DNA of 43,976 nt from Desulfomonile tiedjei (GTDB lineage Bacteria > Desulfobacterota > Desulfomonilia > Desulfomonilales > Desulfomonilaceae). Within the stretch, counting starts at the first letter, position 1, and each line of letters begins with the position of its first letter. A program made the position numbers and the translations under genes. The stretch spans positions 1 through 43,976 of the forward strand of contig JACRDE010000435.1 in the NCBI GenBank assembly GCA_016212935.1. The letters are read 5' to 3'. Below are positions 497-38,619 of the stretch, in pieces. The notes under the pieces were generated by a model. It saw only the letters and a list, made by a program, of their open reading frames with translations, did not search any database and was not told where the DNA came from.

Positions 497-3400
497 TTAA
501 TCGTCGTCCTCGTCTTTGTTCGTACGCTTGTACTTGCGTGACCGCTTCTTTGATTTCGGTTCATCATCATCGTCGTCCCAATCCTCCTCCCGGTCTTGAC
601 GCCGGGAAACGGAGGCACCTGCAGGACCTGCGCTCCCCTTTGAAGCAACCGATCCCAGAATAAGATGACCGGGCTTTGCGAGCGTCGGGGGCTTCTCCAT
701 TGCCGCTCTGAGAAGATTGTCTCTCGCCTCTGACGCCGCTTTCTCCGGAACCTGGGAGCCTTCCCCTACCAGCACGAAGGATGCCCAGTAGAACGGATGA
801 CTGTAGCGCTTGCTTATGCTTCTCACCTGATTTCTCGCCGACGCCAGTGCCTCCGCGGGTTTCTGCCCCTGCTTCATGCTCTTCATGAACTCCTCTACAA
901 ATACCATAGAGGCCCTTTCTGAAACGGTCCAAAGACTCATCAGAACGGTCTTTGCGCCGGCGTACTGAAAAGCGCGTCCCATGCTCATGATGCCTTCGCC
1001 GGTCTTGTATTGTCCTATTCCTGTCTCGCATGCCGCCAGCACGACCAGTTCGGCATTGAGATCGAGATCCAGGACCTCGCTCATTCTGAGATATGGGTCA
1101 GGCAACGATGTGGTAGAGCTCAAAACCAGAACTGGCTCCATGACTCCAGGGATGTCATTCCCGTAGTAACCGTGAGTGGCGAACAGGAGGCATTGATACC
1201 CTGCTAGAGATTGACGAGTGAGTCTCTCCTTGGTGGCCTCCTGCTCCACGAACAAATCGGTTTGGCCTAGATAGATCCTTTCAACTGATTTTCCGAGTTC
1301 CCCTGTCAGCTCCAGTCTAGGCCAAACGAGGCCAGGAGCACCGGAATCCTGCACAGGAGTCGCGGAGGAAGTGTTCTGCTGGATACCAACGGGATGTGAG
1401 CCGGTCTCTTGGGATTGCGCTGGCGCTGATGAAGTGGAGGTTAGATCGACCTTGGCTCGTAGATCCATAGCTGGAGCCATTGTCTGGTCTCCAGACGATA
1501 TCCTGGATATGGTTTTGGGGGCTTGCCCATGAACATCCGGATCCAGCGATCCATCCTGAACGCTTTTGGATGCGACAACTGTGTTTGGAGTGTCTAACTG
1601 TCGGGATTTGTCAGGTTCTTGACCGGCGCAATAAGGGATGGGATCCGCCATTACCAGCAGACGGTCCCCAGACAGGGCACCTTTTGGCATCGCTCGCCCC
1701 AGGGTCAGGGATGTTAGCGATTGATTGTATTGAATCCTGTATCTGTCCCCGAAATAGACCAGCCCGTCAGGATAGGCTCCTCCCTCGTCTTTCCCCCAGG
1801 AAATACGACCTCCAACGACCAGGGTTTCAAATGGCAACTTGCCGAGACATTCCTCAGGGAGAATGACGACAGAGCTCATCTCTGGAACACTACGCATCAC
1901 ATCCGCAAGAAGTCTAGAGTAAATCTTGTGTCCGAGCGCAGGATCATATTGTTCCAGCTTGCCTTTCTGCACGGTTCCCGCGTGCCTCTCAAACGGTTCT
2001 CGGAATCGGTTGATTACCGCATTTAGCTCTTGGTTATTCCAATCGACGTACGAAGTCTTTATAATCTGTTTCCCCTTAATCAAGCGGACTGCGACCCCGT
2101 TCCCAACCGCATCAAGGAGCAAGACGAACTCGTCGGGCTGTATTGCAGCGTTCTGTAGCTCAATGGGTTTTGGATAGCGAACAGCAGCATAGCGGCTGTG
2201 GTTCTTCCACAACAAGTCAACAAATTCCTTGAACTTGACCTCGGCAGCCTCGATCGCTTTAGTTTTTTCATCGTACGCGTCAGGGTGTTGCTCGCGAGTC
2301 AGGAGATCTCGCGCCTTGCTGAGGGAAGCGAGTGTAGCAACGAGCTTCTTTTCTCGATCCATCAGGTCTTGCTTGAAGCCCAGGAGGCCCAAATCGGCTT
2401 TTTGGGCTACGTGATCCGCGAACTGCCTGGCTCGAGCGAACTCGCTCCCAAATACACTCTGATTTGGGCTGCTCTTTTTCGAGTCTTCCTTCACGTGGAC
2501 CCTGCTGAGGCCTTTGGCAGCCTCAGAAGGCAAGAAGCCATTCACGGGTCGGTGGAAGAAATCCTTGCGTTCGGAGACGAGTCTTGATGCTCGAATGCGC
2601 TCTGCAGATTGTGCGGCCTCACTATAGTGCTTTACTGCACTCCCGTAATCTTCGGAACTCTCTGATATCTTGCCAAGGCCTGTTTGTGCGACGAAGTAAT
2701 CTTCCTCACGACCGTGGCGTCGAGCTGTTTCCGACAATTTCTCAAAAGTTACCTTGGCTTCCTTGAGTTCTCCCTTAATCAAGTGCAGACGAGCCAGTGA
2801 CGAATTGAAACCGGAGGTTTTGATGTAAGGCTCCGCCATTTGTGGTCGGCCCATCTCGAGATACACGTCACCCACCAGCTTGGCTGCATAGTACTTCGGA
2901 ATTCCAGCGGATTGGGCAATTTTCAGGGCCGATTCGAATTGCTCTAGCGCCTGGTTGTACTTGGCCTGATCCCCGGTGACTCGCGCCCATTCCAGATAAA
3001 GGCTTCCGACACTCTGCAACGTGAACACCTTCAGTTTCGGATTCCAGACGTTCCTGGCATCTTCCAAAGCACGTTTCGCCACCGTCTCAGCCTCAGAAAA
3101 CTTGCCCTGTTTTTGAAGTGATTCTAAAAGGTTGGCCGTGACATTGCGACGTAATTCTGGATCCTTGCCCGCTGCCTCCAGAGCTTGATTGAACTGTTGG
3201 GCCGAAGCTTGTGGCTTCCCTGAAGTCTGGTACAGGATGCCAAGATTGTTGTGGGCCTGCGCCTGAACCTCGGAATTGGTTATGTCTGCGCGTGCCGATA
3301 AAACCTCGTTATAGTACCGTTCAGCCATCTCGAAATCGCCCATGGCCCAGGACGAGGCGCCAATGCTGTTGATTACCCGCAACCGTCCAGATTCCTCCTG

Positions 3401-4252
3401 GAAGCCTGGAACTAATGACTGAGCTTTCCTGTAATAGGCAAGCGCCTTGTCCATGAGCCCCATGAGGAAGTAGACGTCCCCCAAGGACTTGGTTGCCCGA
3501 AATTCCGCTTGCCCATCCTTTCTCTTTTGCGCGTCCTGAAGCGCATTCAGGTAACTCCGCTCTTTCCCTTTGGGGTCTCGCAAAACAGCTTCGGCAATAC
3601 TGTCATCGATGCCGATTGTGACACGGAAGAAATACATTCGAGAATCAACTGACCCCAGTGTCTCAGGATGCCCTTCTTTGACCTCTACCGCCGCCGGCCG
3701 AGGGGGCTGGGGTGCCCGTTCGGTCGTGGATTGGACCTTTTTCGGCTTGGCCTTCTTCTTGGGCTTGTCTTCGTCGTCATCGTCATCGGGCTCAGGCTCT
3801 TCCTCGGGTACGTAATGGCCCTGTTCATCGCTCGGATAGACGTGAGGATGCTTGATTCCCAGAGGAATGTGGGGGAGAATTGTTCCAATCCCCACGCCTA
3901 TATTCACTCCATGGGACGTTGGAGGATGCACCCCGCTCTGTGTGCGGGGGGGAGTTGTTATCGTAGAAGTTGGGGTTGTTGTTCGTGTTCCAGGGGTCAC
4001 GGTTGTTCGGACGCCGCCCCTCGATCCGGGGAACCCTGAAGGACCGGCAAAGGCAGTCGAATCGATCATGAGCGCAAGGATACTTCCAAGTGCAATCAGC
4101 GTAACATACCTAGCGATGGAAGAAAGATGCACATTCTCTGCGGAGTTGATCCGGCCGAGAGCCGTGCGAATCCTGCAAATTGTGCTGACTTCCATCGCCA
4201 TCTCTGAACCAATATGGCAAAACTTATGACTTGAACCATTCTGCGATTCCAT
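497..4252 (-). CDS. Exported TPR-CHAT domain protein (putative caspase-like protease)
   Basis: A large exported protein of 1251 residues, probably a cysteine protease of the CHAT (separase/caspase-related) family with TPR repeats as a partner-binding platform. After a hydrophobic export segment (about residues 47-69) comes a Thr/Pro-rich linker, an Asp/Glu run then Lys run (about 150-172), a long helical TPR array, and a C-terminal CHAT domain. The catalytic pair is visible as His1027 in FATHG and Cys1075 in LAACETG. The tail is again extremely acidic/basic. The frame is open from 4414, but that start lies inside the upstream gene; ATG 4252 is preferred because AAGGGGGG lies 5 nt before it. 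It is last in the minus-strand cluster, downstream of TPR-OmpA and caspase genes. Family assignment is firm; proteolytic activity and substrate are inferred. Confidence 0.88.
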   Translation of the reverse strand: MESQNGSSHKFCHIGSEMAMEVSTICRIRTALGRINSAENVHLSSIARYVTLIALGSILALMIDSTAFAGPSGFPGSRGGVRTTVTPGTRTTTPTSTITTPPRTQSGVHPPTSHGVNIGVGIGTILPHIPLGIKHPHVYPSDEQGHYVPEEEPEPDDDDDEDKPKKKAKPKKVQSTTERAPQPPRPAAVEVKEGHPETLGSVDSRMYFFRVTIGIDDSIAEAVLRDPKGKERSYLNALQDAQKRKDGQAEFRATKSLGDVYFLMGLMDKALAYYRKAQSLVPGFQEESGRLRVINSIGASSWAMGDFEMAERYYNEVLSARADITNSEVQAQAHNNLGILYQTSGKPQASAQQFNQALEAAGKDPELRRNVTANLLESLQKQGKFSEAETVAKRALEDARNVWNPKLKVFTLQSVGSLYLEWARVTGDQAKYNQALEQFESALKIAQSAGIPKYYAAKLVGDVYLEMGRPQMAEPYIKTSGFNSSLARLHLIKGELKEAKVTFEKLSETARRHGREEDYFVAQTGLGKISESSEDYGSAVKHYSEAAQSAERIRASRLVSERKDFFHRPVNGFLPSEAAKGLSRVHVKEDSKKSSPNQSVFGSEFARARQFADHVAQKADLGLLGFKQDLMDREKKLVATLASLSKARDLLTREQHPDAYDEKTKAIEAAEVKFKEFVDLLWKNHSRYAAVRYPKPIELQNAAIQPDEFVLLLDAVGNGVAVRLIKGKQIIKTSYVDWNNQELNAVINRFREPFERHAGTVQKGKLEQYDPALGHKIYSRLLADVMRSVPEMSSVVILPEECLGKLPFETLVVGGRISWGKDEGGAYPDGLVYFGDRYRIQYNQSLTSLTLGRAMPKGALSGDRLLVMADPIPYCAGQEPDKSRQLDTPNTVVASKSVQDGSLDPDVHGQAPKTISRISSGDQTMAPAMDLRAKVDLTSTSSAPAQSQETGSHPVGIQQNTSSATPVQDSGAPGLVWPRLELTGELGKSVERIYLGQTDLFVEQEATKERLTRQSLAGYQCLLFATHGYYGNDIPGVMEPVLVLSSTTSLPDPYLRMSEVLDLDLNAELVVLAACETGIGQYKTGEGIMSMGRAFQYAGAKTVLMSLWTVSERASMVFVEEFMKSMKQGQKPAEALASARNQVRSISKRYSHPFYWASFVLVGEGSQVPEKAASEARDNLLRAAMEKPPTLAKPGHLILGSVASKGSAGPAGASVSRRQDREEDWDDDDDEPKSKKRSRKYKRTNKDEDDD

Positions 4253-4349
4253 GAGATCCCCCCTTGCAAATGGCAACATGTTTGTCATTGATGGCATTCT
4301 ATTGGAACAAAGGTCCCTGAATAGTCCCGAAAAACAGTGCCGAAGCTTT

Positions 4350-5327
4350 TTAGTTGCATGATTCGATTGCTTCAAGCGACTTGTCTCGGAACGTCGGCTT
4401 CTCTTTGCCCGCATTCCATATGGTGACTCGCCGATTCAGCGTGTCAATTCTTGCCCATTGGGCCGATTCGGTTTGGGTTCGCGATACAATCGGCCGAAAC
4501 TGACCGCAGTTTACAGTAACGAACTGGACGTGGGGATTCTGCCAATTATTGTTCAGGTATTGAACCACGGCATCAGCCCTGCTCCGACCCAAGGCGCAGT
4601 TGCGTTTCTTGTCCCCGGCTTCGTCTGTGTGTCCTTCTATAATTAGCCAGGAGCCTTTGAACGAATTGTCGCGCAAAGCTTCCAAGAGATTGTCCAGCAT
4701 CTGTTTCCCCGCTTTGTCCAGCATGCTGGAATTCCTATGAAAGAAGATGTCCGTTTTGGCGAGCTTTGACCGATATTCCAGAGGAATTTCGTCTGGTGAA
4801 CTAAGAACGTTCTTGAGTGTTCCAGGCGTGTAAATAACTGACATCGCGTTGTAATAGTTGTCGATCAAATCCTTCTGGAGTTTGCTGTCCTCGTAGGCGG
4901 CCAATGCCTCGCTCGTTCGGAAGTGCAGAGAAGCTTTTTCTGCGTCGCCGTTCATTTTGAACAACTCCCCCAGCAGGCGATTAGTTTCAGCTAAGTAGCT
5001 TTTCGATCGTTGAAGCAAGATTGCGCGAAACCGGTTGGCTTTCAGAAGCCGGTTCATGGCCTTTTCGTGGTCGCCCGCCTCCCAATAGATCTTCCCGAGG
5101 AGAAAGTAGCCCTCGGCGTGGCTGCCATGATCTGGGCAAATATCGAATGCCTCTTCAAACATCCTCGTTTTTTTTCCGAGGTCTTGCTCTTCGATGGCGA
5201 GTTTGTAGAGTTCATGGGATTTTGCGAAATCTTCATCCGAGCAGCCCGCCGATACTTGAGCACACAGAAAAAAGCAGGCTGATACCGATATGCAGATGCA
5301 GCGCAGACTTGTTCCAAATGACTTCAT
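4350..5327 (-). CDS. Exported TPR-OmpA-like peptidoglycan-binding protein
   Basis: A 325-residue secreted protein. It has an N-terminal signal peptide (hydrophobic stretch about 8-27 ending near VSAGC, possibly a lipoprotein-like site), TPR-like helical repeats in the first half, and an OmpA C-terminal domain (about 190-310). The domain keeps the GHTDEAG motif with the Asp, and the downstream Arg in GRSRAD, that bind diaminopimelate in this family, so it should attach non-covalently to peptidoglycan. Its start lies 5 nt after the stop of the caspase gene at 5333, which indicates translational coupling. The context suggests that it anchors or localises the exported protease cluster at the cell wall; that role is an inference. 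Confidence 0.85.
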   Translation of the reverse strand: MKSFGTSLRCICISVSACFFLCAQVSAGCSDEDFAKSHELYKLAIEEQDLGKKTRMFEEAFDICPDHGSHAEGYFLLGKIYWEAGDHEKAMNRLLKANRFRAILLQRSKSYLAETNRLLGELFKMNGDAEKASLHFRTSEALAAYEDSKLQKDLIDNYYNAMSVIYTPGTLKNVLSSPDEIPLEYRSKLAKTDIFFHRNSSMLDKAGKQMLDNLLEALRDNSFKGSWLIIEGHTDEAGDKKRNCALGRSRADAVVQYLNNNWQNPHVQFVTVNCGQFRPIVSRTQTESAQWARIDTLNRRVTIWNAGKEKPTFRDKSLEAIESCN

Positions 5328-5332
5328 GCGTA

Positions 5333-7159
5333 CTACTCTTTATATGATTCAACTAGAATAGTGGCCGAGCTCCAGGTACCTTTGGGTTTGGTACCGTCGA
5401 AAAGCACGCGCCGAATTGCTCCGATGAATTGCTCCTGCGGCTCTGTATTCTCCGACTGGGGCTCGCCCACGGAGTCCTTCTGCCACAACCCTTCCAGAAG
5501 ATCGTTTTTTTCGGGAAGCAGAAAGGCTATCAGCATTTCCTTACCGAAGGGTGGGCCGACAGCGAATGAGCCTTCGGCACACCCCACACTGACGGATTCG
5601 CCGGAAGCGACTTTGGTTCTCTGAGGGCCGTGCATGGGATAGAGCGGATGGATAACCCCTTCACTGTCAACGTTGGCAATGTAGAGGTAACCTCCTTGCT
5701 GCGCCTTGGCTTTGAAGCATATGCGGTCACCGTTCACGACCTGCCCTCTCTTGCGGGCGGCCGCACCTTGCGTAATCAGTTCCACGTCCACCGCAGCTGC
5801 AGAATTTCGATTCTGCAGTCTTCTAAATGCTGTCTGGTATTGCAGGGCCCTGAGGTTTCCTGCCACTTTATTGATGACTTCTTCCAGATTGCTGTTCAGC
5901 TGGGGTTCCCAATAGGTTCCGGTGGAGTCGGACAGCCTGCCCCCATAGACTCCGCTCTTCTTCTCGAACGAGACCACGCCCGCAACACCCGAAGAGTTGG
6001 TAGCTATGGAAAGCTTGGGGATTCTGCGCTTCAGCTCTGATTGGATATGTTGCTTTTCTTTCTCGCTGAGACCGCCCTCCAACTTGAGCAAGCAAGCTAA
6101 CTCAGATGGCTGTTCAGCAGTTGCAGAGGGTTGAGATCCTGTGACGAGGAACGCTCTGGAACTCAATTCTTTGTTGGAAAAATGCTTCTGAGGTATCTGA
6201 GCGTAACCTTCTCTTTCGATTTCCTTGGAGAGGTAGTCGGCCAGTTCCTGAAAAGTTGTCTTGCCGTCTCGATTAAGGTCAGCTGCTCCAGCCATAGCGT
6301 GATATAAAAACCACGTGTACACGCTATGAAAACCTTTCGGCTCCCTCGCCATTTCAACTACCTGGGCAGGCTGAGAGTCTTCCGCCGCGGAGAGCGCTAT
6401 CAGCTCGACTCCTGGGGCCGTGCTATGATCCACCAGGCCTGTCTTCACCGCCTGCTTTTGTCCTACTTGCGACCGCGAGTCCCCGCTCTCTCGCGGTTCG
6501 AACACGCTCTTGTAACCCGAGCGAGCTTGAATGGTTTTGCTTTTCCCAAAAAAACCGTCAAGCCTTTTATACATAGTGCCGGAGTGGCACGAGTCGCTGA
6601 CGAATATGAGCGTACGACCACTGAGGTCTTGGATTAATTGCTTTGCTTCATCGTCCATCAGAAGGTTCTTGCACTTTTTCGCGTCAAAGGCGAACCCAGG
6701 CCTCCCCATGAACTCGCGCCGGGTTTTCTGTCTGACCATTTCCGTGTCCCAGCAGACATACGCTTCATCGAGACCGTCTTGAAGCTCGTCTCCGTCTTCA
6801 TCCCAGACCTGAACGCCGTGTCCGCTGTAGTAGAAGAAAACCACCTCTCCGGGATTTGTGCCGTTTACGAGCCAGTCCTTAAAAGCCTGCACTATGTTGG
6901 CTTTGGTTGCCTCGCGATCCACTAGTCGCTTGATATTGGCAGGTTGGACCATACCGGACTTGACCAGGGCGCTCGACAGTAGATTGAGGTCTTCTATGAC
7001 TCCGGGAAGGTTGTCTTCAGGATCAGGATAGTTCTCGATTCCCACCAGGAGGGCGCGATTAATCGTAAGTCCTGCCTCCGCCCGAGCAAACTCTGACGAA
7101 GCCCAAGACAAAACGGCCACCAAAACTAGCATGCTTTTTGTGACGATACCGAGCCGCAT
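5333..7159 (-). CDS. Exported caspase-like (peptidase C14) protein with C-terminal DUF4384-type domain
   Basis: 608 residues. A signal peptide (about 1-27) is followed by a caspase/metacaspase-like domain (about 33-340) with the catalytic dyad His114 (YYSGHG) and Cys191 (SDSCHSG). An Asp/Glu-rich calcium-site-like stretch (WDEDGDELQDGLDEA) sits directly after the His motif, as in many metacaspases. A C-terminal beta domain (about 455-570; GGYLYIANVDSEG, HPLYP) matches the DUF4384 pattern. The start at 7159 is preceded by AGGAAGAGG. The gene is first of a coupled pair with the TPR-OmpA gene and is followed by the TPR-CHAT gene. A MITE-like repeat lies immediately upstream. Family call is strong; substrate unknown. 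Confidence 0.88.
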   Translation of the reverse strand: MRLGIVTKSMLVLVAVLSWASSEFARAEAGLTINRALLVGIENYPDPEDNLPGVIEDLNLLSSALVKSGMVQPANIKRLVDREATKANIVQAFKDWLVNGTNPGEVVFFYYSGHGVQVWDEDGDELQDGLDEAYVCWDTEMVRQKTRREFMGRPGFAFDAKKCKNLLMDDEAKQLIQDLSGRTLIFVSDSCHSGTMYKRLDGFFGKSKTIQARSGYKSVFEPRESGDSRSQVGQKQAVKTGLVDHSTAPGVELIALSAAEDSQPAQVVEMAREPKGFHSVYTWFLYHAMAGAADLNRDGKTTFQELADYLSKEIEREGYAQIPQKHFSNKELSSRAFLVTGSQPSATAEQPSELACLLKLEGGLSEKEKQHIQSELKRRIPKLSIATNSSGVAGVVSFEKKSGVYGGRLSDSTGTYWEPQLNSNLEEVINKVAGNLRALQYQTAFRRLQNRNSAAAVDVELITQGAAARKRGQVVNGDRICFKAKAQQGGYLYIANVDSEGVIHPLYPMHGPQRTKVASGESVSVGCAEGSFAVGPPFGKEMLIAFLLPEKNDLLEGLWQKDSVGEPQSENTEPQEQFIGAIRRVLFDGTKPKGTWSSATILVESYKE

Positions 7160-7170
7160 ATCCTCTTCCT

Positions 7171-7265
7171 AATACCAATGCGCCTTCAAAGCGGTAAGAT
7201 CTGGGAAACACCTCTTACAAGAAGGGTTTCTCCGATTTTGCTTCTTTGATTGCGAATTCGTATAA
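7171..7265 (+). repeat. MITE-like nested-palindrome repeat, short form (copy A)
   Basis: The left end AATACCAATGCGC and right end GCGAATTCGTATAA match the ends of the longer copies at 23078 and 43808 and are imperfect terminal inverted repeats of each other. The interior is reduced to one hairpin (GGGAAACACC...GGGTTTCTCC). It lies between two caspase genes, so it may influence their transcription. No transposase is encoded. Confidence 0.75.
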
Positions 7266-7269
7266 AGCG

Positions 7270-8886
7270 TCACTTTCTTTTCAGCAAATACCAGACCGAC
7301 TCCACTGCATCGAGACTTGATGACTCAATGATGCTGGCAAACCTCTCGAACGATGTCGGTTTAAGGGCAGGCGATACAGGGTCTGTTTGCGGCTCGCCTT
7401 CTCTCTTACGTCGAATCGACTTGGCCGGGGCCATTGTGCGTTCCATGGCCTCTTGGAAGCTCTTCTCCGCCTGCTTCAGAGAGGAGCTGTCGTCTTGTGC
7501 TCGCAGACCGTCGATATCCTTATATAAGGCTTCCAGCTGAGTGTTCCGACTCCGGCTGGCAACCACAAAGATTTTTTCTTGGCCCGCCTGGTCATCGTGG
7601 TGCAACCAGGCGTCCTTGGAAGGAATCCAGTAGATTCGGTCGGGTGAAACCGGATTTTCTATGGGATTGTTCGGGGCCAGATATTCCTTTCCGGGGAACA
7701 GCTTGTAAACACCACCGTTAGCCCCGACCTGAAACACGTAAACAAAGCTCCTTTCCAGTGGACGGAATCCGATCTGATAGTTCTGACCGGCGTACATTGT
7801 GCAACCGTTGCTTATTGTGGTGTCGCCACAATGAGCATCAGAGCACTGCGGGGCACCAGGCTTGGGATCGATGCATTCCGGAGACTTGCAGCGAGCGTCC
7901 TGGGCGACGAACCAGACTTTGAGTTCCAGAGGCTTGTCGAGCTTTGATACCATCGATACTGGGAATGTGCCTGAAAATCTGCCTTCGAACTGAGGGTTTT
8001 GACCTCCTTCGGTCTCCTTACGGGTCTGATCGTAAATATATTCATAGAGCTCACGCACACCCACAACTCCGTTGCGGTCCTGGTCGGCTTCTCCTCGCAG
8101 CCCTTTCAACAGAAAGGACGTAAACACGCTGTTTCCCCATCCCTGTTTTTCCTGAGAATACTCCTCCGAACGACTGGAAGAGAGGATAATTCTTCCCTCG
8201 GAGCTCCCGAAATCCTGAACGAACTTGTCAATCGGTGATTGAATAGATTTGGTGGTCGTTTTCGAAAAGCCCCCTGCGTGGCACGCATCGGCGATTACCA
8301 GAACCCTGCGCGACTCGAGCCTGTCAAGAAAGCTCAGGTTGTTCATTTTTATGGCTGTGGCTTCGAGGAAGTCGGGATCTGCGTCATGGGTAAGAAAGAA
8401 AAAATCGCCCGGTTTTTTCGGATCAGATGCTCCATGACCGCTGAAGAAGAGCACTACAGTGTCTTTCTTACCGGCTTTCAATAGCTCGTAATACAAGAGC
8501 TTTTCCACTTCGGTTTTGGTGGCCTGCTCATCGACCAACAGGTGAGCGAGAGTCTTGCGAAACACTTTGTCATTGGTCTTGAGGAGACCGGCAAAATCGG
8601 AAGCATCCCTTGCGGACAGCTTTAGCCCAGGGATTTTGGGGTTCTTATATTTTGATACGCCTACGGCAATTACGTATAGGTCTCCGGAGCCGGATTCCGA
8701 ACTGTTGGGGAGGTTGTCGCGCACCCTGCCAATCGCCTTGTAATCCGAGCTTGACTCCTGATTTTCCGAAGCACGCGCGGTTGAGCAAGCGAAAACAGCC
8801 ACAATGAGAAACACGGCAAGCAGAAAAACCGCCTTCAGCTGCCCTGATGTTGTCTCGGACCTATGGTAGTGAGCGCTTGATCTCAT
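7270..8886 (-). CDS. Exported caspase-like protein with C-terminal DUF4384-type domain
   Basis: 538 residues. The N-terminal hydrophobic export segment (about 18-40) is followed by a caspase domain (about 68-300) with catalytic His151 (FFSGHG) and Cys202 (ADACHAGG). A beta-rich DUF4384-like region (about 320-440) contains YAGQNYQIGF, YVFQVGANGG and KLFPG. A Cys-rich insert around residues 330-365 (several CxxxxC pairs) could form disulfides in the periplasm. The caspase part is clearly paralogous to the plus-strand gene at 12748 (both share GDLY...VGV..YK.PKIP.L and DADP). A final coiled region ends in basic residues. No strong ribosome site precedes 8886, so the start is the most plausible rather than certain. 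Confidence 0.86.
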   Translation of the reverse strand: MRSSAHYHRSETTSGQLKAVFLLAVFLIVAVFACSTARASENQESSSDYKAIGRVRDNLPNSSESGSGDLYVIAVGVSKYKNPKIPGLKLSARDASDFAGLLKTNDKVFRKTLAHLLVDEQATKTEVEKLLYYELLKAGKKDTVVLFFSGHGASDPKKPGDFFFLTHDADPDFLEATAIKMNNLSFLDRLESRRVLVIADACHAGGFSKTTTKSIQSPIDKFVQDFGSSEGRIILSSSRSEEYSQEKQGWGNSVFTSFLLKGLRGEADQDRNGVVGVRELYEYIYDQTRKETEGGQNPQFEGRFSGTFPVSMVSKLDKPLELKVWFVAQDARCKSPECIDPKPGAPQCSDAHCGDTTISNGCTMYAGQNYQIGFRPLERSFVYVFQVGANGGVYKLFPGKEYLAPNNPIENPVSPDRIYWIPSKDAWLHHDDQAGQEKIFVVASRSRNTQLEALYKDIDGLRAQDDSSSLKQAEKSFQEAMERTMAPAKSIRRKREGEPQTDPVSPALKPTSFERFASIIESSSLDAVESVWYLLKRK

Positions 8887-9050
8887 GGCCTATTACGTCC
8901 GCCGATGGAACGAAATGACAGGCGTCCGCCTATGTCAGGTCGCGGAGATCCAAAACCGAGGTGCCTCTCATAAAATGTTCCTCGGAGATCGACTTTGACT
9001 TGGTATCTTGCTTTGTAGTCCTGCGCTGAGTCTAACTGCCGTACGAAAAC

Positions 9051-9941
9051 CTACTTCACAGGACGCAGCCCCTTTGGTGGCTCTGTTTTCGTTTTCGAAG
9101 ACTGGGACTCGGTTACTGGTTTCAGGCCGCCACCCTTTCCGGTCTTTTTCGACCGATCGCTGACCTCCGTAGCGCTTTCCTCACTATCAGAGGAGGTTGG
9201 GGCCTCACTCGACTCCTCTACGCTCGACGGCACTGCGCCGGATTGCTCTTTACAGACCATGTGGGCCTTGTCCGGAACCCCTTCGCCCTCGACGCTGAAG
9301 ATTACCACACGCCTGTTGAGTCGACGTTTGTCCTCGCTATCGTTGGGGTTTTGTGGGTCCTTTTCCCCGAATCCTCGCGCCACAAGCATTTTCCGGTCCA
9401 CGCCTCGAGAGGCAAGTTCTTCAATTATTTTGTTGGCGCGCATCCAGGACAGTCTGCAGTTGTTTTCATCGCTTCCAATATCGCATGTGTGGCCGTCTAC
9501 ATTGAACCTGGAATAATTGCATTCTCCTTTTCTCGCTCCAATGCTTTTGTCTTTGGCCTTGCCGGACGGCCTCATTTCGCGCAGGACGGCCGCCCTGCGG
9601 CTCTTTGCTGCTGGATCGTTGGAAAGATATTTGGTCATGGCCTCTGCGATCATATTTAGATTTGAAGCGTTGTTCGGGTCGGAAGTGAGAGTTGCCTTCC
9701 CGTATTCAAATAGCAGTGATTCGGATGTCAGAGCTATTTTGCATGTCTCATCCATTTCAACTACTATTTGCTTCACCCCCTTGAGGCCTTTCACCTTGGC
9801 TCCCTTCCCTTTAGTTACCGACTTTGGGGCCTCCCCTTGTTCTTTCAGTTTCTGGTATTCTTCCCATGTCTCCGCGTACCCCACACCGCCCAGAGTCAAG
9901 ATGAAAATGCTTACCACTGTTATTACAGCTGCTTTTACCAT
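9051..9941 (-). CDS. Exported OmpA-family protein with an altered peptidoglycan motif
   Basis: 296 residues from ATG 9941, chosen because GAGGAGGGAATC lies just before it; the frame is open to 9992. A signal peptide (about 2-23, ending GYA) is followed by a short charged linker and an OmpA-like domain (about 60-210). The usual GHTD is GHTC here, followed by DIGSDENN, so the diaminopimelate-binding Asp is replaced by Cys while the Arg of the MRAN helix remains. A long basic insert (RRAAVLREMRPSGKAKDKS) sits between the first strand and the GHT motif. The Ser/Glu/Lys/Pro-rich tail looks disordered. It lies between two caspase genes and probably serves the same envelope system. A sigma70-like promoter is visible upstream. 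Confidence 0.8.
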   Translation of the reverse strand: MVKAAVITVVSIFILTLGGVGYAETWEEYQKLKEQGEAPKSVTKGKGAKVKGLKGVKQIVVEMDETCKIALTSESLLFEYGKATLTSDPNNASNLNMIAEAMTKYLSNDPAAKSRRAAVLREMRPSGKAKDKSIGARKGECNYSRFNVDGHTCDIGSDENNCRLSWMRANKIIEELASRGVDRKMLVARGFGEKDPQNPNDSEDKRRLNRRVVIFSVEGEGVPDKAHMVCKEQSGAVPSSVEESSEAPTSSDSEESATEVSDRSKKTGKGGGLKPVTESQSSKTKTEPPKGLRPVK

Positions 9942-10104
9942 GATTCCCTCCTCGACAACACTGCATTGACTGGATAGAAAACTCTTGCTCAACGATTGCA
10001 GAACTGAACCGATGTGATCGAATCCAAAGCGACGTTTCTTGCCCCCCGAAACTTTTGGCCGCTCTCATTTTCCAAGGAGTGTCTGTTTTGTTTCGGTATG
10101 GTAG

Positions 10105-10134
10105 ATTTTATGACCAAGCTAGTGATCTTGTCAA
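10105..10134 (-). promoter_or_regulatory. Candidate sigma70-type promoter for the OmpA gene at 9941
   Basis: On the minus strand TTGACA (10134-10129) and TAAAAT (10110-10105) are separated by 18 nt. This is a perfect -35 box and a five-of-six -10 box, oriented toward the OmpA-family gene whose start lies about 160 nt downstream. Transcription has not been shown. Confidence 0.5.
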
Positions 10135-10183
10135 TATAGTTCAATGCCCTTGTGGGCTTCAGTGCAGTTTGGCCAAGCGAATC

Positions 10184-11695
10184 CTAGCGATTGAATTTCA
10201 TAGTCTTGGCTATCCCTAGAGGATCGGTGATCCTGGGATTCTGTTTCTCCACCCCCTGATTCCGTCGGCTCGCGATATACTGATCCAGGGCTTTTTTGGA
10301 AACCTTGAAGGCTTCGTCCAGATCGGAAACGCCTCCGTTAATGGCCTTTATCAAGAAGTGGGTAAAAAGGCCGTTTTCCAGTTCCGGGTTCTCCTGGGAG
10401 TTTTCCGAGTCCAAACAGGCCGCCAGGATCGCCTCATTATCGCTTCCTTGGTTGGGCGGCTTGGCCTTGGATTTGGGCTGACCTTGTGCGTGCATTGGAT
10501 GAACGTCTGTGAACGGAAAGAATCTCGCCCTAGTGCCGTGGTCTTCCTGGCCGATTACTTTGTGGATAGTCCCGCTGTGGCAGGAATCCACCACAACAAT
10601 TTTCTTTCTCGACGGGATGGCCTTAAGTAACACGTTGAATTCGTCATCGACCATCAACACCTTGTTCTGTATCGCCTGCTGAGATGTCATGGACCCGCCC
10701 GCAGGGTAGAGGACGTAGCACTCGTCTTTTCCGTCATCTTCATCCAGGGGCGGCTGATCCTTGATGCTGGACCCGTGACCGCTATAATAGATTATCACTG
10801 AGTCTTGAGGACGAGTGACGCTCTCCAGCCATTTCATGCCTCCGACGAATCCCTGGTACGTAGCCGCTTTTCCCATGACCGTCTTTATTTGCGAATTCGG
10901 AATGCGAAGTTTGGTCTTCGTAGCTTTGACAAAATCTTCTGCATCTTTAAAGGTCCATCGCAGATCCGGGTAGTACACACCGATTGCAAGAATGTAGGTC
11001 TTTTCTGCCGGTTCCGATGGGGCCTCCCCTTGATTCGCAGCAGGCGTTGCGGGGACTTGAACAGAACTGGGAGCTGCGATCTGAACCTGCTGCCGATCTT
11101 GAATGCACAAATTGAGCTGCGCTGTACCCCATTTCGTATCCGCGGGAAGGGAGCTGATTTGCTTTCTGAATGCATCATCCAGTCCGAAATCCGTGCCCTT
11201 GAACTCCTTGAAGACATCTTTCGTGAGCCGCTTGAAGTCGTCTTCTTTTAACACCCCATCTTTTTGCGAGACTGCGTAGGCCACAATTCTCTCCACCCCG
11301 CCAGGACCATTCACGACATAATCGAATTGATCCGTGGGCGCAGGGAAGCTTCTCTCTGTATCAGCGCGCACGAAGTTATCCATTCCGGAATACTCGTTAG
11401 GCCACAGCCGAATGATTTTTCCTGATGTCCCCTGGTTAATGAGCGTTACGTAACCGTCTTTGTCCGCCTTGAAGCGAACGGTGACCGTATCGCCGGGGTA
11501 CACTAGGGTTTTGTCAACAAATAGCTGGATCTTAATGTTGGTTTCGTAATTGCCATTGCTGGGCAACAGGCCGATGTTTCTCCAATCGGTTTCATTTTCG
11601 CACGGGCCTGCGGCGCAGACCACCACGAAAGCCAATATCAGGAACCCAGCCCCCAAAACGGTCCATGCCGAAGCAGTTCTCCAGGGATCATTCAT
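10184..11695 (-). CDS. Exported caspase-like protein with N-terminal DUF4384-type domain
   Basis: 503 residues with an N-terminal hydrophobic export segment (about 10-30). The domain order is the reverse of its neighbours: a DUF4384-like beta domain comes first (about 52-145; PGDTVTVRFKADKDGYVTL, IIRLWPNEYSG), then an Ala/Pro linker (about 205-230), then the caspase domain (about 232-500). The dyad is His307 (IYYSGHG) and Cys372 (VDSCHSG), with an acidic loop PPLDEDDGKDE between them that resembles a metacaspase calcium site. The start is supported by CAGGAGAATTGTC before ATG 11695. The caspase part is closer to the gene at 5333 (SCHSGT) than to those at 7270 and 12748 (ACHAGGF). Confidence 0.86.
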   Translation of the reverse strand: MNDPWRTASAWTVLGAGFLILAFVVVCAAGPCENETDWRNIGLLPSNGNYETNIKIQLFVDKTLVYPGDTVTVRFKADKDGYVTLINQGTSGKIIRLWPNEYSGMDNFVRADTERSFPAPTDQFDYVVNGPGGVERIVAYAVSQKDGVLKEDDFKRLTKDVFKEFKGTDFGLDDAFRKQISSLPADTKWGTAQLNLCIQDRQQVQIAAPSSVQVPATPAANQGEAPSEPAEKTYILAIGVYYPDLRWTFKDAEDFVKATKTKLRIPNSQIKTVMGKAATYQGFVGGMKWLESVTRPQDSVIIYYSGHGSSIKDQPPLDEDDGKDECYVLYPAGGSMTSQQAIQNKVLMVDDEFNVLLKAIPSRKKIVVVDSCHSGTIHKVIGQEDHGTRARFFPFTDVHPMHAQGQPKSKAKPPNQGSDNEAILAACLDSENSQENPELENGLFTHFLIKAINGGVSDLDEAFKVSKKALDQYIASRRNQGVEKQNPRITDPLGIAKTMKFNR

Positions 11696-11799
11696 GACAA
11701 TTCTCCTGGGGCGATGCGCAGTTCGAGCACCCCGTTCCCAAGATGAAGAGGACGATTGCCTACTTTGGTGAATTTCCTGCGAGGTCGATTAATAATGCA

Positions 11800-12026
11800 T
11801 TATGCCATTTCACTTTCAAATATGTAAAATCGGGGAGGCACTTCTTGTAAGAAGTTCCTCCCCGAACCCCACCTCAAGAACTTTTAGCACTCGCCGGAAT
11901 CCACATTTCCTGAAAGGAAATTTGGGGTTCCGGCAAATGATAGAAGTTTCTGGAAGGAGGGTTGGGGGGAAACTCTTTACAAAGAGGTCCCCCCAATCTT
12001 ACTTCTTTGAATGCGCATCGGTATTA
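11800..12026 (-). repeat. MITE-like nested-palindrome repeat, long form (copy B, inverted)
   Basis: Three hairpins are visible: CGGGGAGG...CCTCCCCG on the left, GCCGGAA...TTCCGGC in the middle with inner ATTTCC/GGAAAT, and TTGGGGGG...CCCCCCAA on the right. The outer ends correspond to those of copies A, D and E read in the opposite direction (right end ...CTTCTTTGAATGCGCATCGGTATTA). It lies upstream of the caspase gene at 10184. No coding content. Confidence 0.72.
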
Positions 12027-12159
12027 TATATCATTTGCTGATCGTGAGGGCAGCACCATTTTGCTCGACGAGCAAAAATTCTGTGCCGCGAGGTTTCTCA
12101 ATTGATTCTGAAGCTCTCGCGTCCGCAAAGGCGTGACGAGACGATAAGCATCCGATTTG

Positions 12160-12370
12160 TTACGAATTAGCAATCAAAGAAGCAAAATCGGAGAAACCCT
12201 TCTTATTAATAACGTTCGATTTCTTGTTTTCTCGAGAAGAAGTTGGATTGCGATCGATGTAACTTACTGCTTCTATGAGAGAAATCTGACAAAGTTTGGT
12301 TGCGGCCGCAGGCCGCGTCCTGTAAGAAGTGTTTCCCAGATCTTACTGCTTTGAAAGCCCATTGGTATTA
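12160..12370 (-). repeat. MITE-like repeat, short form interrupted in its loop (copy C, inverted)
   Basis: The flanks of this element align with the reverse complement of the short copy at 7171: AGAAGCAAAATCGGAGAAAC on the left and TTTCCCAGATCTTACTGCTT on the right, ending in ATTGGTATTA. The match is broken exactly in the hairpin loop by extra sequence at about 12205-12321. Only about 130 bp separates it from copy B. Confidence 0.72.
12205..12321. other. 117-bp insertion in the loop of repeat copy C
   Basis: Relative to copy A, the hairpin sequence CTTCTT | GTAAGAAG is split here by about 117 bp. The insert contains a GC-rich palindrome near its right end (GCGGCCGCAGGCCGC) and no long frame. 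Neither clear terminal repeats nor a target duplication could be recognised by eye. Confidence 0.55.
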
Positions 12371-12747
12371 GTCATGGTAGTCGTGAAACTCCGTGGCAGG
12401 ATCTTGAATTTTGGATAGGAACGACACCATTACGGCCAGAGCATTGCTCTTTTCGGTAGCGGAGTCGGAGGAGGCAAACGCGGACGAGGTACCAAAAAGA
12501 CAATGGTCATTACTGAAGCCTCGACCGATGGGGCTGCTTTAGGTTTTGCTCGAATGCATGTGGTGGAGCATGTTGACGCATCCTCTGCGTCACGGGCGGC
12601 GTAGTCTGGTTCCGCTCTTTGGTGACCCGTCGCAAACGGCAATCCTGTCAGTTTTTTTGGGCTTGAGGAACTCTGTTTGATCGTGTAGATTGTAGATCTC
12701 AGCACAGGTTCCAAACACAATTCGGTTGCTCAAGGGGGGCAAGGACG
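12371..12747. other. Intergenic leader region upstream of the caspase-Sel1 gene
   Basis: It probably carries the promoter of the gene at 12748, though no convincing -35/-10 pair was found. A plus-strand frame at 12419-12604 has a Gly-rich then mixed composition (GSGVGGGKRGRG..., ending SRAA) but lacks a good start and ribosome site. The overlapping minus-strand frame is equally unsupported. It may be a gene remnant; nothing is called. Confidence 0.4.
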
Positions 12748-15171
12748 ATGCGTGCCTCAGCCACTGTGATTTGCTTTGCTGTTCAGATCATCTTGCTGTC
12801 TCTGTTGCCCATTGTAGGAGACGCACAGCAGCAAGAACAAGACAAAACGGCGACCAAACCTTCTCCTGCACTCTCGCTCGCAGGGTCAGAAGTCGGAATC
12901 GGTGACCTGTATGCCGTTGTCGTTGGGGTAGGGGTTTACAAACATCCCAAAATTCCCAAGCTGAATGTGTCGGATAAGGATGCAAAGGATTTTGCAGCAT
13001 TCCTTGAGTCCCAAAGAAGCCTATTCAGGAATGTGCATCTGACTCTTCTGATCAACGAGCAGGCATCCAAACCAGAGATTGAGAAAGAGCTTTACTACCG
13101 ATTAAGAAGGGCCGGCAAAGATGACACGGTCATCGTGTTTCTGAGCGGACACGGCGCGGATGATCCCAACACGCCTGGGGAGTTCTTTTTCCTGTCCCAC
13201 GATGCCGATCCCCAATTCTTGATGGCCACAGCGGTGCATATGAACCGCCAGTGGTTTCTCAACAAGCTGGATTCCAAACGTGTGGTCGTAATAGCCGACG
13301 CGTGCCATGCTGGCGGCTTCGGTGGGGCCGGTTCAAAGTCGCTGCCCCCTTCTCTCCAGAACTTCGTGAGCCATTTTCGGGAATCCGAAGGCAAGGTGTT
13401 TGTCACGTCATCCAGGTCAGACGAGTATTCCCAGGAAATGTCCGGGATGGACAACAGCATTTTCACACACTTCCTGCTTTCCGGACTAGCCGGTGCGTCG
13501 GACAGGGACTCGGACGGCATTGTGACGCTCAAAGAGCTTTACGACTATGTTTACACCAGGACCAAAGACGCAACAAACGGCTTTCAGCACCCGCAGATGG
13601 AGGGACGCCTGGTGGGCCAGTTCCCGTTGTCGCTGGCCCATGGCGAGACTGAGGCTGCCGCACAAAAATTGCAGCAACCCCAATCGGTTTCCGAACCGGT
13701 TCAGGCCCCTGTGGACGACATGGTCAAGATCAGAGAGCTGGCCGAGAGAGGAGATCCAGAGGCACAGCTCAGGCTCGGGGGCATGTACGAAGCTGGATTG
13801 GGAGTTCCCAGAGACCAGGAACAGGCCGCCTTATGGTACTCCAGGGCTGCGAAAAAAGGCCACGAAAAGGCGAGTAAAGCAATTACCAGGCTACAGAGTC
13901 AAGGAACGTCGACACCTGCAGGCTCTCAGACAGGAGGAAAAACCGAGCCTGTGAAGATTGCCAGCCTTCCACCTGGAGACCAATATCTTCAGCGAGCCAC
14001 GGACCTGACGAATCGTATTGCTGCAGGTGATGAATCTGCAAGGAAGGCCAGGACCGAACTGTACGGGGATTCCACTGCAAGAGAATCCTTACGACGATCT
14101 GCAGAAGCAGGCGATCCGCGAGCACAGTTCCATCTCGGCAACATCCTTGTCTCGGGAACAGGGGTGACTAAGGATTATGTCGAGGCAGTGAAATGGTATC
14201 GTAAGGGTGCAGAGCAAGGATATGCGCCTGCTCAAGTGAACTTGGGGACAATGTATTCATCAGGTCAGGGGGTGGCCAAGGATCACGACGAAGCGGTCAA
14301 ATTGTATCGTAAGGCCGCAGACGAAGGTTACGCTTTTGCTCAAAACAACCTGGGGAGTGCGTACGAGCATGGTCAGGGAGTGGCCAAGGATCACGACGAA
14401 GCGGTCAAACTGTATCGCAAGGCCGCAGAGCAAGGGTTGGCACTTGCTCAAAATAATCTGGGGAGCATGTACGCAAGAGGCCACGGAGTTGGTAAGGACT
14501 ACAACGAGGCACTGAGATGGTATCGCAAGGCTGCAGAGCAGGGCAACTCTACTGCTCAGCTGAGCCTAGGCATCGCGTACGAACACGGTCAGGGCGTTCC
14601 AAAGGATTACAGCGAGGCGGTGAGGTGGTATCGGAAGGCGGCAGAACAAGGACATGCCAGAGCCCAGGCTTTCCTTGCATTCATGTATCGGCAGGGATAT
14701 GGAGTGCAAAAAGACTACAAGGAGGCCCTTGAATGGGCGCGAAAGAGCGTTGAGCAAAATGACGGATACGGGTCTAATGTATTAGGTCAAATGTACGAAG
14801 CTGGTCAGGGAGTTCCAAGAGATCCACAAGAGGGGTTCAAGTTTTTTCGTAAGAGCGCAGAGCTGGGGGAGGCAAGAGGGATGTGCCACGTCGGCTGGTG
14901 CTACGATGCCGGCAAGGGGGTTCGTCAGGACTCGAACGAGGCTTTCAAGTGGTATCGGAAAGCAGCCGAACAGGGCGACGACCAAGGCATGGCGAACCTC
15001 GGTAACGCGTACAGACAGGGCCGCGGAGTCGCACAAGACAGGGAAGAGGCCATCAAGTGGCTCACCAAGGCTGCTGAGCTAGGCAACGAGGACGGAAAGA
15101 AAAGGCTTGCTGAGATGAAAGGTTCCGGGAGCAAACGCCGTCCACGTGCCGAAGCAGAGGATGATGAGTGA
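12748..15171 (+). CDS. Exported caspase-Sel1 repeat protein
   Basis: 807 residues. A signal peptide (about 1-26, ending GDA) precedes a caspase domain (about 50-295) with catalytic His135 (FLSGHG) and Cys186 (ADACHAGG). Next comes one Sel1-type repeat (about 330-370), a linker, and nine consecutive 36-residue Sel1 repeats (about 450-790; pattern A..YL/LG..Y..G.GV..D..EA..WYRKAAEQG). The tail is basic then acidic (KRRPRAEAEDDE), echoing the charged tail of the TPR-CHAT protein at 497. Sel1 arrays are protein-interaction solenoids, so this looks like a protease with its own adaptor. It is transcribed opposite to the other cluster members. Its caspase domain is paralogous to that at 7270. Two neighbouring repeats are nearly identical at DNA level, which indicates recent internal duplication. 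Confidence 0.9.
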   Translation: MRASATVICFAVQIILLSLLPIVGDAQQQEQDKTATKPSPALSLAGSEVGIGDLYAVVVGVGVYKHPKIPKLNVSDKDAKDFAAFLESQRSLFRNVHLTLLINEQASKPEIEKELYYRLRRAGKDDTVIVFLSGHGADDPNTPGEFFFLSHDADPQFLMATAVHMNRQWFLNKLDSKRVVVIADACHAGGFGGAGSKSLPPSLQNFVSHFRESEGKVFVTSSRSDEYSQEMSGMDNSIFTHFLLSGLAGASDRDSDGIVTLKELYDYVYTRTKDATNGFQHPQMEGRLVGQFPLSLAHGETEAAAQKLQQPQSVSEPVQAPVDDMVKIRELAERGDPEAQLRLGGMYEAGLGVPRDQEQAALWYSRAAKKGHEKASKAITRLQSQGTSTPAGSQTGGKTEPVKIASLPPGDQYLQRATDLTNRIAAGDESARKARTELYGDSTARESLRRSAEAGDPRAQFHLGNILVSGTGVTKDYVEAVKWYRKGAEQGYAPAQVNLGTMYSSGQGVAKDHDEAVKLYRKAADEGYAFAQNNLGSAYEHGQGVAKDHDEAVKLYRKAAEQGLALAQNNLGSMYARGHGVGKDYNEALRWYRKAAEQGNSTAQLSLGIAYEHGQGVPKDYSEAVRWYRKAAEQGHARAQAFLAFMYRQGYGVQKDYKEALEWARKSVEQNDGYGSNVLGQMYEAGQGVPRDPQEGFKFFRKSAELGEARGMCHVGWCYDAGKGVRQDSNEAFKWYRKAAEQGDDQGMANLGNAYRQGRGVAQDREEAIKWLTKAAELGNEDGKKRLAEMKGSGSKRRPRAEAEDDE
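14263..14478 (+). repeat. Near-identical 108-bp tandem duplication inside the Sel1 array
   Basis: The stretch starting GGTCAGGGGGTGGCCAAGGA at 14263 recurs at 14371 with only a few synonymous or conservative changes over about 65 bp. The period is 108 bp, exactly one 36-residue Sel1 repeat. Other repeats in the array are more diverged. Confidence 0.8.
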
Positions 15172-15208
15172 GAGGCGAATACTTTCGTTGTAATAGTTGG
15201 GACCTGAT

Positions 15209-15233
15209 TCAGCCCCATCCGTCGGGCTGATTT
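15209..15233 (+). terminator. Candidate weak intrinsic terminator
   Basis: TCAGCCC (15209-15215) pairs perfectly with GGGCTGA (15224-15230) across an 8-nt loop, followed by only three T residues. It lies 37 nt after the stop of the caspase-Sel1 gene, in the gap before the convergent UspA gene. Confidence 0.5.
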
Positions 15234-15273
15234 CATCCCACCCATAACTAAAAGGCTAGAAAGACTCCTGACG

Positions 15274-15711
15274 TTAACACTTAACAGTGAGCACTGGGCA
15301 ATTAGCCATTCTAACCACATACTCCGCAGTGCTCCCCAGAAGCAAATGGCTCAGGCCGGTCCTGCCGTGAGTGCCCATTATGACCAGGTCAACGGATTGT
15401 TCTTCTGCCAGTTTCACGATTTCTTCACCAGGGATGCCTTTTCTTGAAAACGTTTGAACCGAAGGCATCTGACGTTTAAATCTTTCGCCTATTTCCTGCA
15501 ACTCTTCGTGAGCTCTCTTTTCAACTGAATCAACTGCTTCGCCGTATACAGGGAGACCAATCAGCGCCGGATGTTGGAGGAATCTGATGTTGATGACATT
15601 GACGACCAGCAAGTCTGCTCCAAAGGTCGTAGCGTAGCTCAATGCAATTCGCCCGGCCCGTCTGCAATTATCGGAGAAATCTGAGCAATATAGAATTTTG
15701 TTTGGGGTCAT
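15274..15711 (-). CDS. Universal stress protein, UspA family
   Basis: 145 residues covering the whole single Usp domain. The nucleotide-binding signature G-x2-G-x9-G-S/T is present near the C-terminus (GTHGRTGLSHLLLGS), so it belongs to the ATP-binding Usp subgroup. The N-terminal strand ILYCSDFS fits the family. It is a cytoplasmic stress-response protein of unknown specific partner. It is a single gene, convergent with the caspase-Sel1 gene and separated from it by about 100 bp. The start has a modest AGGATTC upstream. Confidence 0.92.
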   Translation of the reverse strand: MTPNKILYCSDFSDNCRRAGRIALSYATTFGADLLVVNVINIRFLQHPALIGLPVYGEAVDSVEKRAHEELQEIGERFKRQMPSVQTFSRKGIPGEEIVKLAEEQSVDLVIMGTHGRTGLSHLLLGSTAEYVVRMANCPVLTVKC

Positions 15712-16613
15712 GATTCGAATCCTGAATCGTCGATCTATGATGAATAAAGTGTGCAGAACGCAATGGAAGTACCAAAATGCTTTTCGCGGAAGCTCCCCAT
15801 TCTGTTACCTTCGAAGATCCAGAAGGGTAGTGTGATGCGGACCCTTCTGTCAAGATAAAAATGGTCCTTTCGTAGGCCTTAAGGTCGATCCTTTCGGGGG
15901 GCAAGGCAAGGCTTGGAGTTGCCCCATGCTTATAGACAGTGGTCCTTTTTGCGTGTAGTAGCGTCTTATGGATGAGGTGGATGATGAGGATAAACGACTC
16001 AGAGTAAACTTAAGCAATCACCTTCGCAAGAGGGCCGGTGCAGTTTTCAGCGGAGTTCGCGAGAACTTTTGGGTTGACTCGGGAGTTGATAGTGAGTTAC
16101 GCTTGAGGAGCGCGACCCCATTGGCTTATTCAGAAACGTAACCACAGTCTTTTCTTCGTAAGGTCTTGTGGAAGAAAAACGGGAGCCTTTTTCCGAACCG
16201 AGAATATTCTTTTCTACCAATAGTTCCCACAGGAAGTCGTGCGTTGGCCCATCGATCCATAGCAGCAAGATAGAGATGTTGGGATGTCGAATAACCGTTG
16301 CCAGAGATGGGAACCAAGCGGATGTTCACTATCCTCCCTCCTGCAAGTCGAATTGAGAGTCATTGTCTGCGTTCGTTCTGGTTCGGGAAGACAGACGATC
16401 CCCGGATAGAAGAAAAACAGGCCACCACGGAACCTTACAGATGGAAAGCCGGGGAAGTAACGACGCCAAGTTTCTTCATTTGGTGTGGCTGTATCGAAAT
16501 TCGACCAAGGAGGAACGGTCCTGTTGATACGTGGTGCGACTCATTGTTGCAGGAGGATGCATAGCATCGTTATTGCGAGTCACCAAAGAAAAACAAGAGA
16601 AAGGAGAGTCCGC
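15712..16613. other. Intergenic region of about 900 bp with no supported gene
   Basis: It must contain the promoters of the UspA gene (leftward) and the binding-protein gene (rightward). The only short frame of any interest is 15968-16141 on the plus strand (57 residues, starting MDEVDDEDKR, soluble and charged), but it lacks a ribosome site. Other frames are antisense to one another. Nothing else was recognised. Confidence 0.5.
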
Positions 16614-18919: not shown

Positions 18920-18940
18920 ATTCCATTCGAGGTCAGTCGA

Positions 18941-20461: not shown

Positions 20462-20507
20462 CCGTCCTTACCTCCGACTTCCGGAGAATCATCAAAGCGT
20501 AGGTTAC

Positions 20508-21293: not shown

Positions 21294-21299
21294 CTGCCT

Positions 21300-22049: not shown

Positions 22050-22057
22050 TACACATC

Positions 22058-23077: not shown

Positions 23078-23305
23078 TAAGACCAATGCGCTTTCAAAGC
23101 AGTAAGATCTGGGGAACCTTTTTTGTAAAAAAGGTTCCCCAGACCCTTCCAAAAAACTTTTGACACTTGCCTGAATCCTATTTTTTCCGACGGAAAAATG
23201 AGGATTCAGGCAAATTACTAAAAGTTCTTGGGATGGGATTCGGGGAAACACTTTTTGCAAGAAGTGTTTCCCCGATTTTCCTTCCTTGATTGCGAATTCG
23301 TATAA
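23078..23305 (+). repeat. MITE-like nested-palindrome repeat, complete long form (copy D)
   Basis: This is the best preserved copy. The left end ACCAATGCGCTTTCAAAGC and right end GATTGCGAATTCGTATAA are imperfect terminal inverted repeats of each other. Hairpin 1 (23108-23143) is a perfect 17-bp stem with a 2-nt loop. Hairpin 2 (23167-23213) pairs TTGCCTGAATCCT with AGGATTCAGGCAA. Hairpin 3 (23241-23274) pairs CGGGGAAACACTT with AAGTGTTTCCCCG. The arms between hairpins also pair, so the whole element can fold as one nested palindrome. It sits between the end of the redox operon and the start of the transporter operon, where it could terminate the first and lie within the promoter of the second. 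Confidence 0.85.
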
Positions 23306-26861: not shown

Positions 26862-26895
26862 AAGACTCTTAGCTCGCGTTTCTCTTTCAAGTCGT

Positions 26896-27621: not shown

Positions 27622-27622
27622 G

Positions 27623-28531: not shown

Positions 28532-28593
28532 TTACTCCTGTTGATGACTTCGGAAGAAAATCCGTAAAAAAGATGACAGTTCCATAGCGGAAT

Positions 28594-31274: not shown

Positions 31275-31275
31275 T

Positions 31276-38603: not shown

Positions 38604-38619
38604 GCTGCACCTTAAAGAA

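Follow-up and report, generated by a model that had tools for sequence, protein, structure and literature searches.

The question raised by the locus studied here is whether a dense group of caspase-like (C14) and CHAT-type proteases, interleaved with OmpA-domain proteins, makes up a system of the cell envelope, as was proposed in an earlier note on this DNA. Bacterial caspase homologues are discussed mostly as cytoplasmic enzymes of death or defence. The locus lies at positions 497-15171 of the window, which is the whole stretch of DNA analysed (43,976 nucleotides of Desulfomonile tiedjei) and makes up the entire contig C306 of a draft genome of 5.6 Mb with a completeness of 86%.

Gene content of the window

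Domains were called from Pfam matches above the curated cut-offs, and the content given in the earlier note for 497-15171, four C14 proteins, one TPR-CHAT protein and two OmpA-domain proteins, was borne out. Six of the seven genes, spanning 11695 to 497, are read from the minus strand and encode a DUF4384-C14 protein (10184-11695), an OmpA-domain protein (9051-9992), two C14-DUF4384 proteins (7270-8886 and 5333-7159), a TPR-OmpA protein (4350-5327) and a TPR-CHAT protein with a separase-like CHAT domain of 161 bits (497-4414), respectively. The seventh gene (12748-15171), encoding a C14 domain together with ten Sel1 repeats, is divergent on the plus strand. The four C14 domains scored 47-72 bits (Pfam cut-off 21.4), and DUF4384 is present on three of the four C14 proteins. 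AlphaFold models DUF4384 with fair confidence (pLDDT 80) as a beta-sandwich, for which no match at E 0.001 or better was obtained in the PDB, and the fold is therefore not used to assign a function.

The TPR-CHAT gene has OmpA, C14 and periplasmic binding protein genes as its neighbours by Pfam, and the remaining scanned genes of the window are metabolic or transport ones. AIR-synthase-like and radical SAM/GNAT genes of the MSMEG_0567/0568 (sll0787) group, adjoining ABC transporter genes, are located at 17909-23026. Genes for multihaem cytochrome/QmoC-like, iron-sulfur, aldehyde ferredoxin oxidoreductase-like and MtaA-like methyltransferase proteins at 25428-31340 and 37275-41850 look like an anaerobic energy-metabolism region. 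The cluster edge is 496 bases from the contig end, and the cluster may thus be truncated there; additional C14 genes are present on other contigs of the same genome.

An intergenic dispersed repeat, CTTTGAAAGCGCATTGGTATTA, was found at 7170-7191, 12005-12026, 12349-12370 and 23078-23099. It has 60 copies in the genome (at most one mismatch), with none for the reversed control, and looks like a REP-type element; a role of such sites as a regulatory motif of the cluster was ruled out, the dispersed copies not being cluster-specific.

Catalytic motifs and predicted specificity

All five proteases retain their catalytic motifs, as claimed before: the four C14 proteins have SGHG and D-S/A-C-H, and the CHAT protein has FATHG and AACETG. 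Two C14 alignments were made, one joining the 10184-11695 protein and six homologues (7 sequences, 36-42% identity) and the other joining the remaining window C14 proteins and ten homologues (13 sequences, 17-40% identity to the first sequence). No substitution was seen in either alignment at the SGHG His, at the catalytic Cys or at the Asp located two positions ahead of it; with homologues only 17-42% identical, these residues are therefore under selection. Metacaspases were the nearest solved structures, both by profile search and by the AlphaFold model of the 10184-11695 protein. The Asp preceding the catalytic Cys is known from metacaspases as part of an acidic S1 pocket. On the basis of this Asp and of the match to metacaspases, cleavage after Arg or Lys is predicted for the window C14 proteins. 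A DUF4384-C14 gene of a relative (L042 10046-11482, G008:C122) contains one in-frame TAG and retains both the His and the Cys motifs.

Wall-binding sites and export signals

The two OmpA-domain proteins had been described as wall binders. This agrees with the sequence of the 4350-5327 protein, in which both the Asp and the Arg of the peptidoglycan-binding (diaminopimelate) site are present, but not in the same way for the 9051-9992 protein, in which the key Asp is replaced by Cys. By alignment, the latter and the proteins of L044 15225-15995, L046 12608-13465 and L047 4025-4645 form a subfamily of OmpA domains in which GHTC replaces GHTD and another Cys (NNC/MNC) is conserved as well; the paired Cys residues would perhaps form a disulfide in the wall-binding loop.

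Export of all members is likewise predicted, in one case conditionally. By hydropathy, judged by script and by eye (SignalP was not part of the check), a hydrophobic N-terminal segment followed by an A-x-A-like site was found in six of the seven proteins as called; for the 9051-9992 gene, the true start is probably 9941. The exception is the TPR-CHAT frame as called from 4414, which has about 100 leading residues without a hydrophobic segment and overlaps the neighbouring gene. Its signal-like stretch becomes N-terminal only with an internal start (ATG at 4201 or 4195, or GTG at 4132), and the homologues of this protein have the signal directly at the N-terminus.

Conservation of the cluster in related genomes

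About ten genomes of the same family carry reshuffled versions of parts of the cluster, and the neighbourhood is conserved as a parts list, not as a fixed gene order. The proposed co-occurrence of CHAT, TPR-OmpA and C14-DUF4384 genes was observed as a triple on one strand at three loci: L053, on another contig of the window's own genome (TPR-OmpA, TPR-CHAT, C14-DUF4384); L044 (TPR-OmpA, C14-DUF4384, TPR-CHAT, DUF4384, DUF4384-C14, serpin, OmpA); and L048 (TPR-OmpA, TPR-CHAT, C14-DUF4384, DUF4384-C14, serpin, TPR-CHAT, DUF4384-C14). Subsets of the parts occur at L046, L047, L051, L052, L059 and L060.

At the protein level, the window TPR-CHAT protein shares 29% identity with the CHAT protein of the L044 cluster over 1015 aa, and the TPR-OmpA protein has full-length homologues (36-40% identity) in clusters of G002, G008 and G011. 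The 5333-7159 protein has homologues of 37-40% identity in four relatives, with SGHG and D-S/A-C-H preserved, the 10184-11695 protein has homologues in relatives at 36-42%, and the C14-Sel1 protein has its relatives at L054, L090 and L091. The block is patchy, since G001, the nearest relative of the window's genus in the genome set, gave no DUF4384 match.

Outside the family, exported OmpA, C14 and C14-DUF4384 proteins are grouped in Roseibium, Cohaesibacter, other Hyphomicrobiales, an Alcanivoracaceae bin, Desulfobacter latus and others, so that such groups recur in Alpha- and Gammaproteobacteria. Fusions of DUF4384 to a subtilase (S8) or trypsin domain were also seen (L043 5078-7033, L094 2709-4610 and L042 17214-18761), and DUF4384 appears to be a module common to exported proteases of unrelated classes.

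With the neighbourhood conserved in related genomes and the dyads intact, the idea of a distinct exported, non-cytoplasmic group of caspase and CHAT proteins is supported.

Serpins and sigma factors in the clusters of relatives

Caspases are restrained in animals and by viruses through serpins such as SERPINB9 and CrmA. No serpin and no sigma/anti-sigma pair were found in the window, and the sole serpin of its genome (L079 11902-13776, G000:C389; a frame of 624 aa) has a degenerate hinge and no nearby caspase gene. An exported serpin is located inside the cluster in five Desulfomonilaceae genomes (L041, L042, L043, L044 and L048). A serpin at 5 kb or less from a C14 gene was found in five Desulfomonilaceae clusters, in 11 alphaproteobacterial clusters and at three sites of one gammaproteobacterium. 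This amounts to 19 of 34 serpins as against 0.55 expected, where the expectation was computed from C14 number and genome size and is not corrected for shared descent, and where the 34 serpins omit three weak matches of Gammaproteobacteria and two genomes of Alphaproteobacteria and come from genomes partly found via cluster matches; a probability computed from this count should therefore not be read literally.

Serpins are rare in Alphaproteobacteria, found in 13 genomes out of 297 for the order to which Cohaesibacter belongs and in 9 out of 385 for the class; seven of the 13, and four of the others, lie in an OmpA/C14/DUF4384 cluster. The serpin and C14 frames often overlap, and at L263, L264 and L265 the order is OmpA, C14, C14-DUF4384 and serpin, and the frames overlap both between C14 and C14-DUF4384 and between the latter and the serpin. 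Among 274 genomes sampled from Gammaproteobacteria, one (G1290) has three serpins, all of which follow C14 genes. At a further 36 serpin loci of Thermodesulfobacteriota, the available flanks, some of them short, are devoid of C14, CHAT and DUF4384 genes; serpins therefore do not generally accompany caspases. Two of the serpin clusters encode proteins with WD40 repeats, each about 1200 aa long, in which a hydrophobic segment lies at the N-terminus and a C14-like domain at the C-terminus (L100 11989-15630 and L253 2281-5925).

The cluster serpins of relatives scored 154-414 bits for PF00079, above the cut-off, and all 19 linked serpins have the small-residue hinge of the inhibitory type (P15-P8), xxGTEAAAAT or a close variant. 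On the serpin tree four changes of the linked state were counted, at least three of them forced by well-supported branches; the L100 branch is long and its placement unsure. Judged from this tree, the linkage likely arose by more than one recruitment of a serpin. A report of serpin linkage to orthocaspase, CHAT or metacaspase clusters was not found in the literature covered, which consisted of open-licence papers, subscription journals being largely outside.

All five Desulfomonilaceae serpin clusters are headed by an ECF sigma gene and a gene for a zf-HC2-type anti-sigma factor with one predicted transmembrane segment (L041 13160-14810, L042 11928-13698, L043 12632-14318, L044 2697-4411 and L048 169-1688). 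Such pairs also lie upstream of a C14 gene at L055 4482-6076, in the window's own genome, and at L082 10973-12627. For other phyla, ECF genes within a few kb of C14 genes were seen in loci of Marithrix, Thiotrichaceae, Bacteroidota and Bipolaricaulota. Cleavage of an ECF-sigma inhibitor by a TPR-CHAT protein, Csx29, takes place in the cytoplasm (PMC10028731) and is a precedent for a functional tie between CHAT and ECF sigma proteins.

Proposed function and alternatives

The explanation that we favour, with guarded confidence, is a module of envelope proteases tethered to the wall, with control by an inhibitor and a sigma factor in relatives. The C14 and CHAT proteases would be exported, facing the periplasm or the outer membrane, and would be held at peptidoglycan by the OmpA-domain proteins; envelope damage or a bound ligand would activate them. 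The serpin, where present, would trap the active protease and so set a threshold, while the sigma pair would adjust expression or might itself be released by proteolysis, comparable with Csx29. The window would be a serpin-less version of this module, or a version cut by the contig end. The cascade suggested in the earlier note, in which the CHAT protein or one caspase would activate the others, is speculative. The more specific proposal of a caspase-serpin circuit, with wall-held exported caspases, a dedicated serpin in the same operon, an ECF sigma/anti-sigma switch in one family and repeated serpin recruitment, is put forward tentatively and is more doubtful than not.

A serious alternative, a little short of an even prospect, is that the serpin controls only the serine proteases of the cluster (the trypsin- and subtilase-DUF4384 proteins) and that the caspases are mere neighbours in a general secreted-protease island. 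Most alphaproteobacterial clusters indeed contain partner proteins in which trypsin is joined either to DUF4384 only or to both C14 and DUF4384: a trypsin-C14-DUF4384 fusion, in L255 with Gln in place of the caspase His, directly precedes the serpin at L252, L255, L262 and L263, and trypsin-DUF4384 proteins occur at L253, L256 and L259. The L100 cluster contains a trypsin gene, a DUF4384-trypsin (L042) and a DUF4384-subtilase (L043) adjoin the serpin in the window's family, an Arg at P1 suits trypsin, and the Gln-Cys caspase/trypsin/DUF4384 architecture of Alphaproteobacteria has already been described (PMC6426788). Against this reading, C14 or CHAT proteins are the only proteases seen near the serpin at L044, at L048 and in the gammaproteobacterial blocks, where the three serpins of G1290 stand beside C14 genes and none of ten products of two serpin blocks scanned by Pfam is a serine protease. 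The P1 residue, or that of a loop shorter by one, is basic in 14 of 14 linked proteobacterial serpins, in none of the five Desulfomonilaceae serpins and in 26 of 54 unlinked ones, and the non-basic P1 in Desulfomonilaceae is at odds with Arg/Lys-specific caspases. Naming the target protease from the loop was consequently given up, as it fits the proteobacteria and fails in the window's family; likewise, the loop Asp/Glu at L042, L043 and L048 was dropped as a sign of caspase specificity, these caspases having an acidic S1 and being expected to prefer Arg or Lys. Serine proteases and caspases may both be targets, and the targets may differ between lineages.

That the proteins are independent secreted digestive proteases, clustered through duplication without a joint function, seems unlikely. 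The many C14 paralogues (up to 23 per genome in Alphaproteobacteria) and the strong variation in cluster content would agree with it, but the recurrence across classes of unrelated partners (OmpA, CHAT, DUF4384-only, serpin and ECF sigma pair) is something that duplication cannot supply, and the shared order and overlapping frames of L263, L264 and L265 argue against it as well. Far less probable still is cytoplasmic anti-phage defence or programmed death of the Craspase or caspase-gasdermin type, although TPR-CHAT and caspase domains also occur in such systems and PADLOC gave a generic caspase match. Export-type N-termini are present on all members (on the CHAT protein only from an internal start), and Pfam revealed among the cluster genes neither Cas7-11 nor a gasdermin, a STAND ATPase or a nucleotide sensor. 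Beside the window TPR-CHAT gene neither Cas7-11 nor Csx30/Csx31 was seen up to the contig end, and no gasdermin is encoded in 497-17834, where every ORF of at least 250 aa is otherwise assigned. PADLOC matched no more than generic models for caspase and TPR domains, MotB-type models (OmpA-like) and, in one weak case, PtuA (to the Sel1 repeats), and the defence reading was rejected on the ground that these are generic or weak.

Relation to known systems

The wall-held protease module that we favour shares features with several known systems. Like prokaryotic orthocaspases and metacaspases (MEROPS C14), the window proteins have a p20-type fold, SGHG, DxCHxG and an acidic S1 residue, to which the cluster proteins add export-type N-termini, DUF4384 and OmpA neighbours and, in relatives, a serpin. 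The Gln-Cys pseudo-orthocaspases with N-terminal trypsin and C-terminal DUF4384 (PMC6426788) correspond to the proteins before the serpin in several alphaproteobacterial clusters; in the available part of that paper they are described without OmpA or serpin neighbours, and the window C14 proteins differ from them in having no trypsin domain and in keeping the His-Cys dyad. Craspase/CASP (Csx29, Csx30 and ECF sigma; PMC10028731) likewise shows genetic linkage of a TPR-CHAT protein with ECF sigma and with the inhibitor of that factor, whereas here Cas7-11 and Csx30/31 were not seen, the proteins look exported, the anti-sigma factor is of the zf-HC2 type with one transmembrane segment, and the sigma linkage is found in relatives, not in the window. 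SERPINB9, CrmA and prokaryotic serpins (PMC8233489) have the PF00079 fold and the inhibitory hinge in common with the cluster serpins; unlike the animal and viral ones, the latter are bacterial and exported, have no conserved Asp/Glu at P1, and their pairing with caspases is suggested by gene linkage. DegS-RseA envelope stress signalling also combines an ECF sigma factor, a membrane anti-sigma factor and envelope proteases, but the proteases of the relatives are of the caspase, CHAT or S1/S8 type, and cleavage of their anti-sigma factor would be a guess.

The new element is the repeated linkage of serpins to exported caspase clusters, located in relatives outside the window. The functions of prokaryotic serpins are "relatively enigmatic", and most have no known endogenous target (PMC8233489). 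The serpin-linked clusters of relatives suggest a controlled protease circuit outside the cytoplasm in some bacteria. If the caspase-serpin circuit is true, it would be an extracytoplasmic protease-inhibitor loop with a logic comparable to that of animal protease cascades. Clusters that combine serpins with exported caspases and OmpA-type proteins occur in three bacterial classes; they offer a concrete candidate pair of protease and inhibitor, and both families may have a role in the envelope.
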